Shown here in pieces: positions 11,585 to 48,682 of a stretch of DNA of 64,000 nt. The notes below the pieces were generated by a model. The model worked only from the letters and a program-made list of their open reading frames with translations. It was not told where the DNA came from and did not search any database. Numbering within the stretch: position 1 is the stretch's first letter; every line of letters begins with the position of its first letter. Where the stretch lies: assembly GCF_000012985.1 (NCBI RefSeq), contig NC_007645.1, positions 4,672,581 to 4,736,580 of the forward strand. Direction: 5' to 3'. The position numbers and the translations under genes were made by a program. This stretch comes from Hahella chejuensis KCTC 2396 (GTDB taxonomy: Bacteria > Pseudomonadota > Gammaproteobacteria > Pseudomonadales > Oleiphilaceae).

Positions 11585-13509
11585 ATCGAGTAGGAGGGGG
11601 AGTTACCTCCCCCGTCCTCTCACACCACCGGGCATACGGTTCCGTACCACGGCGGTTCATGATTGGCGCTGAAGCCGGTTCATCGTATCCAGCAAGCTTA
11701 CCAGAGACAGGCGGTCGAACATCCTCTTGGGAAGCGCCGCGTTCATATGGGACGCGCCACTATTCCACCAAGGTCCCCGACCATTGCTTGCGCTACTCCA
11801 AGCCCTCTGCTCGGACAGTCCTAGTCGCATTAGATTACGGGCTCGGGTGTAAGTCCGTTTCCACTGTCGCCAGAGCAACAGGCGCAACCGCCGTCGCACC
11901 CAGCCATCGAGTCCTTCCACTGGGCGCTTCGAGGTCGTCAGGCGATAGTAGTTCGCCCAGCCCCGGAGTGCCGGATTCAGTCGCGCAATGGTGGTCTGCA
12001 GCGGTCGCCCTCGTGATTGTCTGAGCAACTGACGCAGTTTGGCCTGGTAGCGCTTCAGGCTCTTCGGCGCGATCCTCAGCCGTACCTGCTTGCGCCAGCT
12101 CACGCTGTAACCCAGATAGCTCCGGCGCCATGGTCGATCCACAGCACTTTTCTCCGCGTTCACTTTCAGGCGAAGGTGCATTTTCAGGTAATGGGTAATG
12201 CTAGTCATGACCCGGTGACCGGCCCGCTCGCTTCGGACGTAGATATTGCAGTCGTCCGCGTAGCGGCAGAACCGGTGGCCCCGGCGCTCCAGCTCCCGGT
12301 CCAGTTCGGTCAGGAGCACATTAGAGAGCAGAGGTGACAGGGGGCCGCCTTGCGGCGCGCCTTCCCGCCTTGGGCTGACCAGCCCACCGTCCAGCATACC
12401 GGCTTGCAGGTATCGGCGGATCAGGGTGAGCATCCGTCGGTCGGCGATGCGGCGGGCCAGCAGGCCCATCAGCACATCGTGGTTGACCCGGTCAAAGAAC
12501 TGCTCCAGATCCAGATCGACCACCCAGCGGTGACCGTCGTTGATGTGCCGTTGCATCGCCCTAACCGCCTGATGGGCGCTTCGCCCGGGGCGGAACCCGT
12601 AACTGTGGTCCGAGAAGATCGGCTCCAGCATCGGGCTCAGCACTTGGTGCAGGGCTTGTTGGATCAGGCGATCCTGTACCGTTGGGATGCCCAGTATCCG
12701 TTCTCCGCCTTGCGGTTTGGGGATACTGACCCGGCGTACTGGTTGAGGATGGTAGTCTCCGGCCAACAGCCGCTCTCGCAGCGTTGGCCAATGCTGTTGC
12801 AGGTGGCCTTTCAGGGCCGCCACCGGCATCTGATCGACACCGGCGGCGCCCTTGTTGGACATCACCCGCTGATACGCATGCATCAGGTTCGGGCGCTCAA
12901 GCACCTGTTCCATCAGCGTATTCGGCTCCGCGTTCGTCCACGAGTGAGCCCCCGTGTCTGCCTCAACACGGGCTTCAGTCTCTGCCGGATACCGTCCGAC
13001 GTCTCCCTGAATACCCTGACCCATCCGGATCGCTTCTGTCTTCATAAGCACATCACGAGAACTCACCGCCTACTGGCGGTCAACCATGTTCAGTCCTTCA
13101 GTACGCGGTAACGCACCTACTATGACCTCGGCTGAGTTCTGGCGCTCCATCCCCACCCCTCACGAGGTGAGTAGCACAACGGCAGAGAACCAGACTTCCC
13201 AGGGTAAGACGCGTGACCTTCACACTTATGCCCGCCGCATCTACGTCCACACCTTCCGTGCAAGTACGGGCTTTGACGGTATTTGCCGCCTTACCCAGTG
13301 TGGCCGCCTCGTATGCGATTCCTGTTCGTCAGGCCAGTGCTTTGCCTACGGCTTCCTTCAGATTCCACCTCACGATGGACACCCTTGCCGTTCGGCTAGT
13401 GGTTCCCCTTGCCGGGCCCACAGGGGACTTGCACCCCCAAGTCATCCGGCCAGCACCACCTGAACCGGAACAGCGCCCGTCAAGGCACTACGCGCCATGC
13501 CTGGCGCAC
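11585..13509 (-). mobile_element. Group IIC intron with maturase
   Basis: The intron begins GTGCGCC at 13509 on the minus strand and ends CCTACTCGAT at 11585, giving 1,925 bases. The 3' end carries a domain V hairpin (about 11625-11660) with a CGC-type catalytic triad and a domain VI with a CCTCCTACTC end, as in IIC introns. The maturase ORF lies in domain IV. The element sits 3' of a terminator hairpin and its T-run, the preferred target of IIC introns. Boundaries come from conserved ends and could be off by a base or two. Confidence 0.85.
11657..13066 (-). CDS. ltrA: Group II intron reverse transcriptase/maturase
   Basis: The 469-residue protein has a complete reverse transcriptase domain: [50 protein letters not shown] and the catalytic FCRYADD (YADD at about 269-272). 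The maturase domain X follows ([10 protein letters not shown] and [18 protein letters not shown]), then the IIC-typical [16 protein letters not shown] tail. It aids intron splicing and target-primed reverse transcription and lacks an endonuclease domain, as IIC proteins do. No frameshift is visible, so it may be active. The likely start is the ATG at 13066 or one a few codons later. Confidence 0.95.
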
Positions 13510-37709: not shown

Positions 37710-37994
37710 TCAATGCTTGACGACGCCGCTTTCCGGCGCCCATACGCCAGAAGAAGATTCAGCCGCGGCCGCTTTCAAGGCGCAAGGCGTCGGCCGGTCT
37801 CTTTCTATATACCCCACCCGTTGCTCTTCAGGCACATTATGGGAAATTTCGTAGGTGATGAGCGCCTCCATGCAGAGCTCTTTCTGTTCCATTGATAACT
37901 TTTTGCCGTCCGGCCACTTGCCCAACTCCAAGGCTGTCTTCATCGCCTCATAGATCTCCGGAGTCAGGTTTTTTACTGCATTTTCAAAGGACAT
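37710..37994 (-). CDS. YeaC-like DUF1315 protein
   Basis: From the ATG at 37994 the protein is MSFENAVKNLTPEIYEAMKT, then ALELGKWPDGKKLSMEQKEL and HNVPEEQRVGYIERDRP, the DUF1315/YeaC pattern, for 94 residues. A longer frame begins six codons upstream. Function is unknown. A Fur-box promoter lies about 90 bases upstream but points the other way. Confidence 0.9.
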   Translation of the reverse strand: MSFENAVKNLTPEIYEAMKTALELGKWPDGKKLSMEQKELCMEALITYEISHNVPEEQRVGYIERDRPTPCALKAAAAESSSGVWAPESGVVKH

Positions 37995-38072
37995 AAGGGG
38001 TCTCCAGCACAATGTTGCGGACTATAACATAAGGGCGATCCGACATTTCAATAAAATTCTGGTGAAAAAGTG

Positions 38073-38102
38073 TTGACTTACAAATGATAATCATTATCAT
38101 TT
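38073..38102 (+). promoter_or_regulatory. Fur-box promoter
   Basis: A 21-base palindrome AAATGATAAT-C-ATTATCATTT (38082-38102) closely matches the Fur consensus GATAATGATAATCATTATC. On the plus strand TTGACT (38073-38078) and TATCAT (38095-38100) with a 16-base spacer make a sigma-70 promoter that the palindrome covers. Fur with iron would block it. No coding gene starts downstream on the plus strand. Confidence 0.8.
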
Positions 38103-38106
38103 GCAT

Positions 38107-38244
38107 TGTGTGTTTGATCCCACACAGCTCTCATCAGAGTATTCACAGCTACTTGGGGGATGCGCATCAACGGAGGCTGGCTAAACCAGCTCTGCAACTT
38201 GGTTTAACCGTTATACTCCGTTGATGCCTTCCCCATCTTTTTTT
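38107..38244 (+). ncRNA. Candidate Fur-regulated small RNA
   Basis: A transcript from the Fur-box promoter would start near 38107 and end after the terminator T-run at 38238-38244, about 138 bases. No ORF with a start and ribosome binding site lies in it. Inside are a GCTGG/CCAGC stem (38176-38190) and a long closing stem. This layout is that of iron-stress sRNAs such as RyhB and PrrF, which repress iron-using proteins. I could not match its sequence to those. Its last ~34 bases are antisense to the 3' end of the rhomboid gene. Confidence 0.65.
38156..38244 (+). terminator. Rho-independent terminator of candidate sRNA
   Basis: GCATCAACGGAG (38164-38175) pairs perfectly with CTCCGTTGATGC (38216-38227). 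A further GGGGA/TTCCCC step extends the stem and TTTTTTT follows at 38238-38244. The loop contains a smaller hairpin. The T-run is only on the plus strand, so the terminator serves rightward transcription, although the stem also follows the rhomboid stop on the other strand. Confidence 0.75.
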
Positions 38245-39101
38245 CCACTTGTTTTTAGCCACAACGCCATTGACGTCAAGCCAAACCAAAAGCCGACGAA
38301 GTGCGCGGTATTGGCGAACGAAACGCCAAATTGATCAGAGACGCCCAGCATACCCGCCAACATCCACACAATACTGAAAATCACCATCGCGGAAGGCGCC
38401 CACATCCGCATACTCGGCGCTAACGCCCACCCCGCCGCGTGCGCGCCAACCAAGGCATAGGCGACGCCGGAAAAGCCGCCAAACGCCGGCCCCGCCACCA
38501 AATACTGAGCGAAGTTGCTCACTACAGCCGCCCCCAGAATAAACGAAACGAATCCGCCACGACTGAACAAGACCTCCAAGGTCCGGCCAAATATCCACAA
38601 CGCAAGGGAGTTAAACAGCCAGTGCGCCAGCCCCAAGTGCAACCATGCGGGAGACAGCAAACGCCACCACTCTCCTTTTTGCAACGTAAACAGCAAGGAC
38701 TGAACGCGAGAAGACAGGTCCCCGGAAGGCAGCTGAACACGATCAATGATGAAGAAATAACGACTGCTCTGGAAATCGCCAAAGCCAGTGTACAAGGCCG
38801 CCACCAGTATCGTCAGCAACAACCAGGCGATGCAGGGAAAAGGCTTTAACTGCATCGCCAGACTGGAACCCTTGGGGCGTGGTTGCGCGCTTACAACCTC
38901 TCCCAACCGCTCACGAACGCCAGGGTCTTCTTTGAAACGTTGATAGCAATCCAACACAACAGGCTTGGCGGCGGGATCTTTAACCCATATTTCCTGCCGC
39001 CCTTCATTCTCGGTGACCCATATCGCAACGCCCCTGCTGCGCAGATAGCGATACAGCGACTCAATATCTTCTTCGATTGGGATATCGCAAACTTTTTCCA
39101 T
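38211..39101 (-). CDS. Rhomboid-family intramembrane serine protease (GlpG-like)
   Basis: Read from ATG at 39101 (MEKVCDIPIEEDIESLYRYL) the protein has 296 residues. An N-terminal cytoplasmic domain is followed by six hydrophobic segments. The WLHLGLAHWLFNSLALWIFG region, the catalytic Ser in GFSGVAYALVG and the His in NTAHFVGFWFG make a GlpG-type active site. It cleaves membrane proteins within the bilayer. The gene follows the phosphatase gene after four bases, likely in the same transcript as nadK. Confidence 0.92.
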   Translation of the reverse strand: MEKVCDIPIEEDIESLYRYLRSRGVAIWVTENEGRQEIWVKDPAAKPVVLDCYQRFKEDPGVRERLGEVVSAQPRPKGSSLAMQLKPFPCIAWLLLTILVAALYTGFGDFQSSRYFFIIDRVQLPSGDLSSRVQSLLFTLQKGEWWRLLSPAWLHLGLAHWLFNSLALWIFGRTLEVLFSRGGFVSFILGAAVVSNFAQYLVAGPAFGGFSGVAYALVGAHAAGWALAPSMRMWAPSAMVIFSIVWMLAGMLGVSDQFGVSFANTAHFVGFWFGLTSMALWLKTSGKKDGEGINGV

Positions 39102-39105
39102 GCAC

Positions 39106-40095
39106 TTAGCGCCCGGCGGCGCCCCCTGCTTCACGCATGACATCGACCCAGACAAAGTTGTCCGCAGTCAGCTTGCGATCTCCCGCTTCGAGTCGATAGG
39201 CCACCAACTTGCCATACTTCACTGCGCTGTAATCCAGACAGGCGATATTGGGACGAATGGGACGCGGCGCGCCTTGCAGCCAGTAATGTCCAACGAACAA
39301 CGGCGGCTCTTCCAGGCCATAAAACAGCAGCATGCGCCGCTCCCGCTCCGACAGACGTCTTTCCGCCACTTCGTCAGGCAGAGCGTCCGGCTGAAACACT
39401 ACGTCGCCGTAGGTTTCAGGCTCCGCCTTCCAGAATTTGGTGCGGAATGCGGTGCGCACGAAGCCGTCGCTGCTGCGAATAGACATACCATCCGGGAGTT
39501 TCATATCCGTGCCGCGCAACAACCGGTCCATCACATGGCCGGCAAAACTGTCGCGCACGGTGGAGGCATGTAGAAAGTCTTCCGTAATAAGGCCATCGGG
39601 GTGATGCTCCAGAAACTGGGAAATCAATTCATGATCCCAGCAGGCGTGCACAACGCGGAAACTCTGGTCGTCAATCAGCAACGGCAGCGTCATGAACCAC
39701 TCAAGAAACTCGTTCCATTCATGGCCATAATTGGCGAACTGATCCAGCGTTTCCCGAATCAAACGCTCATGACGGGGCGTATGCTCACGCAAATAGGTAT
39801 GAGCGCTGCCCGGACGCGCCCGGGTGCAATAGCCCAGGGCGTTGTACTCATGATTCCCCATGACAATGCGCGCGCCGCCATGCTCCACCATATCCCGCAC
39901 AATATGTAGCGCTTCGCGGATGCGTGGACCTCGGTCGACAATATCGCCCACGTAAATCGCCTGACGATGCTTATGCGTGTATACGCCGTTAATCTTCCGG
40001 TAGTCGAGCTTCTCCAGCAATGCCTCCAGCGTTTTGGCGCATCCATGGACGTCGCCGATGAAGTCAAAGCCTCGGTACTTCTGGCTCTCGGACAT
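39106..40095 (-). CDS. Calcineurin-like metallophosphatase
   Basis: The 329-residue protein has the metallophosphatase motifs GDVHGCAKTLEALL, YVGDIVDRGPRIREAL, VMGNHEYNALGY and a later VVHACWDHE with metal-binding His. It resembles bacterial PrpE/ApaH-like serine/threonine phosphatases. The substrate is unknown. It starts 4 bases after the nadK stop and ends 4 bases before the rhomboid start, so the three genes form a tight operon. Confidence 0.9.
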   Translation of the reverse strand: MSESQKYRGFDFIGDVHGCAKTLEALLEKLDYRKINGVYTHKHRQAIYVGDIVDRGPRIREALHIVRDMVEHGGARIVMGNHEYNALGYCTRARPGSAHTYLREHTPRHERLIRETLDQFANYGHEWNEFLEWFMTLPLLIDDQSFRVVHACWDHELISQFLEHHPDGLITEDFLHASTVRDSFAGHVMDRLLRGTDMKLPDGMSIRSSDGFVRTAFRTKFWKAEPETYGDVVFQPDALPDEVAERRLSERERRMLLFYGLEEPPLFVGHYWLQGAPRPIRPNIACLDYSAVKYGKLVAYRLEAGDRKLTADNFVWVDVMREAGGAAGR

Positions 40096-48296: not shown

Positions 48297-48373
48297 TGGC
48301 GGAGCGGACGGGACTCGAACCCGCGACCCCCGGCGTGACAGGCCGGTATTCTAACCGACTGAACTACCGCTCC
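48297..48373 (-). tRNA. tRNA-Asp (anticodon GTC), copy 1
   Basis: The minus strand folds as a 77-base tRNA-Asp. GGAGCGG pairs with CCGCTCC, the anticodon arm is CCGGC-CTGTCAC-GCCGG giving GTC, the T arm has TTCGAGT, and CCA is encoded. It is identical to the copy at 48510-48586. Confidence 0.97.
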
Positions 48374-48397
48374 GCGAAAATCCATCTTTGGGGAAGA

Positions 48398-48473
48398 TGG
48401 TGGGTGGTGCAGGGATCGAACCTGCGACCCTCGCCTTGTAAGGGCGATGCTCTCCCAGCTGAGCTAACCACCC
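48398..48473 (-). tRNA. tRNA-Val (anticodon TAC), copy 1
   Basis: The 76-base tRNA begins GGGTGGTTAGCTCAGC, has anticodon arm CGCCC-TTACAAG-GGCG-like giving TAC, a T arm with GGTTCGATCC, and encoded CCA. It is identical to the copy at 48607-48682 and is transcribed just before tRNA-Asp copy 1. Confidence 0.97.
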
Positions 48474-48509
48474 AGTTCCAGATGAACTGGCTCTTGATTT
48501 AGTAGAAAT

Positions 48510-48586
48510 TGGCGGAGCGGACGGGACTCGAACCCGCGACCCCCGGCGTGACAGGCCGGTATTCTAACCGACTGAACTACCGCTCC
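48510..48586 (-). tRNA. tRNA-Asp (anticodon GTC), copy 2
   Basis: This is an identical second tRNA-Asp, 77 bases with encoded CCA, separated from tRNA-Val copy 1 by 36 bases. Confidence 0.97.
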
Positions 48587-48606
48587 GCGATCTCTATTTC
48601 AGAATT

Positions 48607-48682
48607 TGGTGGGTGGTGCAGGGATCGAACCTGCGACCCTCGCCTTGTAAGGGCGATGCTCTCCCAGCTGAGCTAACCACCC
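48607..48682 (-). tRNA. tRNA-Val (anticodon TAC), copy 2
   Basis: This is an identical second tRNA-Val, 76 bases with encoded CCA. It is the first tRNA of the leftward Val-Asp-Val-Asp array. Confidence 0.97.

Follow-up and report, generated by a model that had tools for sequence, protein, structure and literature searches.

A divergent PrrF-type small RNA (sRNA) that is Fur-repressed, trans-acting and iron-sparing is very probably encoded at positions 38107–38244 of the window, the 64,000-nucleotide stretch of the Hahella chejuensis KCTC 2396 genome (a single contig of 7,215,267 bases) that was analysed here. Sequence comparison identifies the locus as a real, conserved PrrF-like sRNA gene, and its proposed mechanism is derived from homology and complementarity, from which we infer transcription, the start site, Fur binding, Hfq dependence and target repression. 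The RyhB/PrrF-type layout suggested by a first-pass annotation is supported by the conservation of promoter, Fur box, core and terminator across the Marinobacter/Hahella family.

A Fur-box promoter and a long terminator delimit the sRNA

The near-consensus Fur box over a TTGACT-16-TATCAT promoter, described in the first-pass annotation, was confirmed. The −35 hexamer TTGACT (38073–38078, plus strand) and the −10 hexamer TATCAT (38095–38100, plus strand) are separated by a spacer of 16 bases and gave 10/12 matches in a promoter scan, and a TTGAC/TTTAC-like −35 hexamer is retained in relatives. The Fur-box palindrome AAATGATAATCATTATCATTT (38082–38102, plus strand) spans the promoter spacer and the −10, which lies within it. 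Relative to the 19-base Fur consensus GATAATGATAATCATTATC, this box shows three mismatches per strand on both strands; at that tolerance it was the single site in 64 kb, and none of 100 shuffles contained one.

Folding placed a 5′ hairpin, UGUGUG-UUUGAUCC-CACACA, directly downstream (38107–38126, plus strand), and the 5′ end of the sRNA probably lies near 38107. It is followed by the core CUCUCAUCAG (38128–38137, plus strand), which is invariant in 22/22 aligned members and is predicted to pair with acnB, and by a second motif, UAUUCACAGCU (38140–38150, plus strand), all 11 bases of which are complementary to the start region of sdhC, its predicted pairing partner. The strong terminator with seven T reported initially was likewise recovered, as a long hairpin at about 38154–38235 (plus strand, from folding) and a run of seven T at 38238–38244 (plus strand, read from the sequence). 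A simple scan allowing loops of 3–8 had missed this hairpin because of its length. The resulting predicted transcript comprises ~138 bases (38107–38244). We also asked whether the long 3′ arm could be a repeat or part of a mobile element and rejected this, as a search of its own genome gave the locus itself as the sole strong match; the weaker matches were its own inverted repeat (E 0.012) and four of 14–17 bases (E 1.9–6.5).

The earlier statement that nothing is encoded between promoter and terminator was nearly right, with the exception that the 3′ end of the rhomboid protease ORF on the opposite strand is antisense to the last 34 bases of the sRNA (38211–38244), within the terminator. On the plus strand, a 46 aa ORF (38084–38224) and short AUG frames are present, which could point to a small-protein gene or a leader/attenuator instead of an sRNA. 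However, the 46 aa ORF starts inside the Fur box, the conserved parts are the core and the helices rather than protein frames, and no plus-strand gene follows that a leader could serve, both neighbours being antisense. We regard such a leader or coding gene as scarcely credible.

The sRNA is conserved at a fixed genomic address

In three genomes of the same genus (G001, G004 and G005), the whole stretch is 97% identical at the DNA level, and three further ones (G002, G003 and G006) retain the promoter, the 5′ hairpin and the core with a different 3′ hairpin. In an alignment of 22 family members, CTCTCATCAG is invariant and the Fur box largely so, its columns being mostly invariant or nearly so. 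Conservation in relatives was one of the checks proposed in the first-pass annotation, and both promoter and terminator are indeed retained.

A model built from the 22 aligned members and including the promoter (R1) matched 146/163 family genomes with E ≤ 0.01, with a single copy in 145 of the 146, and gave no match at E 0.01 in the other 17/163. When the 22 training genomes were left out, 124/141 family genomes were matched. The sole doubled copy among the 146 was seen at G176:C4:50752-51110, where two R1 matches lie ~110 bases apart.

A model-free pattern search (Fur box plus core), which is stricter than R1, was run on a collection of 84,980 species and yielded 56 stretches; records close to the source genome may be absent from this collection. 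By title, 51 of them belong to Marinobacter and one each to Hahella, Oleiphilus, Oleiphilaceae, a Gammaproteobacteria bin and a Halomonas bin. A pattern search directed at family genomes with core-less sequences, covering 18 genomes, returned the source site and four others (one in G043, one in G040 and two in G034), which were judged by eye, the reversed control likewise giving two in G034. Separately, locus L053 in G015 carries a Fur box, a terminator and a TATCACAGC motif without the CTCATCAG core and scores 27 bits to PrrF; it may be a still more divergent relative.

The genomic surroundings are equally constant. The sRNA lies between a yeaC-like gene (DUF1315; 37710–37994, minus strand) on its left and the rhomboid protease gene (ORF 38211–39155, minus strand) on its right, with genes for DUF2797, an M1 aminopeptidase, a phosphoesterase and an NAD kinase further on the minus strand. 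For synteny we kept 68/69 loci, 60 of them unique. Within the surrounding 3 kb, yeaC was found at 60/60 and the rhomboid gene at 59/60 unique loci, all antisense to the sRNA; the one locus lacking the latter (L009) is located at a contig end. Among the 56 pattern-selected loci, 54 had yeaC, 55 the rhomboid gene and 53 both in the correct place, and in the remaining three the sRNA lies within ~110 bases of an end of the available stretch. In 42/55 of these loci the rhomboid stop codon falls within the sRNA, ahead of the end of the T run.

With yeaC as its constant neighbour, the Fur box might instead belong to this minus-strand gene, the plus-strand RNA being incidental. In one locus (L007 in G019), the Fur box is immediately followed by the start of yeaC, and a plausible promoter of yeaC itself can be read by eye at about 38022–38054. 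The Fur box, however, overlaps the plus-strand −35/−10 and is situated upstream of that apparent yeaC promoter, and the core, 5′ hairpin and terminator are conserved on the plus strand, for which a mere yeaC operator would have no need. We therefore consider an operator for yeaC alone very unlikely; it is possible that the Fur box serves yeaC and the sRNA alike.

The sRNA is a sub-threshold relative of PrrF

The first-pass annotation did not recognise the sequence and suggested that it may form a new family. This has to be revised, as its kinship with PrrF is recognisable, albeit below threshold: the Rfam PrrF model (RF00444) matched it over the full model length with 27.2 bits (E 0.01; cut-off 90). 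By the gathering cut-off the locus is outside RF00444 and is PrrF-like only. RyhB was not among the six Rfam matches listed up to E = 10 for 37950–38320, and PrrF was the one plausible family in that list; we dismissed the mir-623 match (20.3 bits, cut-off 70) and the remaining matches up to E = 10 as chance. Weak PrrF matches at E near 1 and above were likewise discarded as noise, since 6/14 control genomes match at that level; none of the 14 exceeded the PrrF cut-off.

PrrF scores rise in relatives. Ten Marinobacter-like and related family members scored 35–44 bits, and intermediates reached 62 bits (G042), 68 and 84 bits (two copies in G037) and 127.5 bits (G055). Across the order, R1 matched 47/391 genomes. 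Of these, 26 lie outside the family, including 11 from a single other family (f20), in several of which two matches are spaced ~215 bases apart. All four f20 loci given to Rfam were PrrF at 158–162 bits, over the cut-off, and five loci from families f34, f38 and f8 scored under it.

Because R1 contains the promoter, we derived a second model (R2) solely from the transcribed part. A search of 437,828 bases with R2 returned 14 matches at E ≤ 10, every one inside 11/12 PrrF-type loci, among them loci that score 158–162 bits as PrrF, and none in 400 kb of background. As 10/12 loci had been found via core-containing models or PrrF, this result is a ranking against background and not a blind discovery. 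R2 missed L035 (62 bits as PrrF) and detected L033 (127.5 bits) at E 0.023 only; L110 and L111 accounted for two additional matches at E 0.12.

The same data bear on the idea of a convergent RyhB-like analogue that does not descend from PrrF and resembles it in Fur box, terminator and a short seed complementary to ribosome sites. The low score (27.2 bits, cut-off 90), a 5′ half unlike PrrF and a core that resembles a ribosome-site complement and could thus arise repeatedly are all compatible with it, and BrrF of Burkholderia is described as such an analogue, free of sequence likeness (PMC7377471). Against this stand the continuous intermediates at 35–44, 62, 68 and 84 bits, promoter-free detection that works in both directions and the core CUCAUCAG followed by TA.TCAC.G, a segment in which 15/19 bases are identical to four Pseudomonas-type PrrF sequences over the cut-off. 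On balance, convergence appears unlikely and descent from PrrF is the reading we prefer.

Helices are consistently paired with weak covariation

The stretch 38107–38246 folds at −52.9 kcal/mol, compared with −32.0 kcal/mol (sd 3.4) for 200 dinucleotide shuffles (z −6.1). Single folds showed a 5′ hairpin upstream of the core in 60/60 members, with a 5′ part at or below −3 kcal/mol; six short transcripts in this set were ended at an earlier T run, leaving out their terminators. The core had a median unpaired fraction of 0.83 over all members and is mostly unpaired in the Marinobacter type. In the predicted Hahella fold it is only about 0.45 unpaired, which counts against the sRNA reading.

In 15 members, the counted helices had standard pairs in 90% of cells versus 36–52% when slid. 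Double changes in these helices were few, and one slid control equalled or exceeded the real helices. Consensus folding was near-empty, with five pairs (−0.13 kcal/mol) for the whole set, no pairs for the promoter-free set and three pairs in another consensus fold, because the helices vary in sequence and position and were left unaligned by MAFFT. Pairing in the helices is thus consistent and their covariation weak.

acnB and sdhC are the best target candidates

Ahead of any pairing analysis, we chose sodB, sdhC and acnB as the usual PrrF targets. For acnB, AGCUCUCAUCA pairs with UGAUGAGGGUU at the ribosome site, which was equalled or bettered by 2/347 background leaders; for sdhC, all 11 bases of UAUUCACAGCU are complementary to AGCUGUGAAUA, located at the GUG start (1/347 leaders equal or better). 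With RNAduplex, 9/347 background leaders were as low as sdhC and 3/347 as low as acnB. In both comparisons, the background starts were set by a simple rule that may be wrong for some genes. The best background leader, that of a response regulator, reached −17.8 kcal/mol, and such pairing energies therefore also arise by chance.

The first-pass annotation had named sodB, located in the same window, as a target type. Pairing analysis did not bear this out for H. chejuensis, leaving acnB and sdhC as the better candidates: no helix of at least 6 pairs was found in the seed region, the wider stretch 38107–38160 offered only a 7-pair helix that 117/347 background leaders matched or beat, and by RNAduplex 343/347 were as low or lower.

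We extended the pairing analysis to genomes having both the sRNA and the target locus (500 shuffles each). At p < 0.05, uncorrected, pairing was positive for acnB in 13/13, sdhC in 10/14, sodB in 4/14 and the yeaC control in 0/8 genomes; the four nearest Hahella genomes share the seed region and these counts are not independent. Each of the six Hahella genomes that carry the UAUUCACAGC motif is among the sdhC positives. Since much of the sdhC start-region sequence also occurs in genomes without the sRNA, this match is no evidence of co-evolution. Pairing with sodB was confined to G007, G016, G017 and G021 (4/7 non-Hahella versus 0/7 Hahella genomes), and in G017 and G021 the sodB leader and the sRNA change together (GAGAGAAACCA with UGGUUUCUCUC and GAGAGAGAUCA with UGGUCUCUCUC).

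The acnB anti-core TGATGAG was present in 15/15 genomes with a PrrF-type match versus 3/10 without (Fisher p 0.00025, uncorrected for kinship); one of the three exceptions is G015, which carries the Fur-box locus scoring 27 bits to PrrF. In 3/15 further loci the acnB start was not located.

Within its own genome, the exact anti-core was not enriched (13 sites, one being the sRNA's own complement, versus 9 for the reversed control). One of these sites (L120, G000:C1:653086-653095) places the start codon of a cytochrome c gene inside a perfect core complement beside the ribosome site (−16.7 kcal/mol); having been picked from the anti-core scan, it is a post hoc lead only. Another site (L124, G000:C1:4668870) is found shortly before the left end of the window; here the exact anti-core contains the initiation codon of a long ORF of unknown family, with no clear ribosome site.

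Proposed mechanism and relation to known iron-responsive sRNAs

The genome encodes both Fur (best of four family matches, 2.5e-45) and Hfq (5.7e-29). In the presence of iron, Fur-Fe2+ would bind the box at 38082–38102 and keep the promoter shut. Once iron is lacking, the promoter would open and the ~138-base RNA be made, ending at the terminator. Its core CUCUCAUCAG is predicted to cover the acnB ribosome-binding site by pairing and its second motif UAUUCACAGCU to pair across the GUG start of sdhC. Translation of the paired mRNAs would halt and the mRNAs decay, presumably with Hfq, and the repression of acnB and sdhC would spare iron.

Like PrrF1/PrrF2 of Pseudomonas, the Hahella-type sRNA combines a Fur box over the promoter, a 5′ hairpin and a terminator with an exposed CUCAUCAG core and the TA.TCAC.G motif behind it, and its predicted targets acnB and sdh are shared as well. 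It differs from PrrF in its 5′ half, its fixed address between yeaC and the rhomboid gene and, in Hahella, its long 3′ arm and the lack of predicted sodB pairing. A tandem prrF1-prrF2 arrangement is typical of P. aeruginosa and does not define the PrrF family; H. chejuensis, in contrast, has one R1 match. Targets of P. aeruginosa PrrF include acnB, acnA and sdhCDAB, as given in PMC2851614, which also presents ArrF of Azotobacter and NrrF of Neisseria as iron-repressed PrrF homologues; we liken these two to the Hahella-type sRNA by description. RyhB of Enterobacteria (RF00057) is alike in function, being Fur-repressed and iron-sparing (according to PMC2851614 and PMC7377471). BrrF of Burkholderia, also compared by description, is iron-sparing too, with sdhC among its predicted targets; unlike the Hahella-type gene, brrF has no Fur box directly upstream and is co-expressed with hemP (PMC7377471).

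Iron is often a limiting nutrient for Marinobacter and related bacteria, which are widespread in the sea. Rfam's curated cut-off leaves the locus unnamed, yet it is present in most family genomes. Full-text searches of the literature gave no report of the Hahella-type sRNA and nothing joining PrrF and Hahella; a kingdom-wide sRNA prediction from 2008 (PMC2527527) may include the locus among its candidates. Between PrrF and the divergent form at a constant address, the loci make up a natural series, in which the gain and loss of targets in an sRNA regulon can therefore be tested. Predicted pairing with acnB extends throughout the tested set, that with sodB is limited to some Marinobacter-like genomes, and sdhC is reached via a different motif in Hahella.

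A more far-reaching, and in our view doubtful, interpretation sees a separate iron-sparing sRNA branch with a rewired regulon, in which sodB was dropped in Hahella, two seeds are used, the terminator has grown into the rhomboid gene and an antisense sponge has arisen. If so, the core would read acnB and perhaps cytochrome c, UAUUCACAGCU would read the sdhC start and the terminator would reach into the rhomboid gene, which is convergent, at its 3′ end. Read-through of that gene would act as the antisense sponge for the sRNA and thereby link membrane proteolysis with the response to iron.

Other features of the window

Group II intron RNA domains were detected at 13093–13379 (minus strand), together with a long ORF at 11657–13066 (minus strand). 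The leader and N-terminus of an RT-like ORF in this region are found in identical form at another place in the genome (L224), which makes a multi-copy intron probable. Among four tRNA genes at 48300–48682 (minus strand), two share one Rfam score and two another (70.5 and 69.9 bits), so that they are perhaps a tandem duplication.
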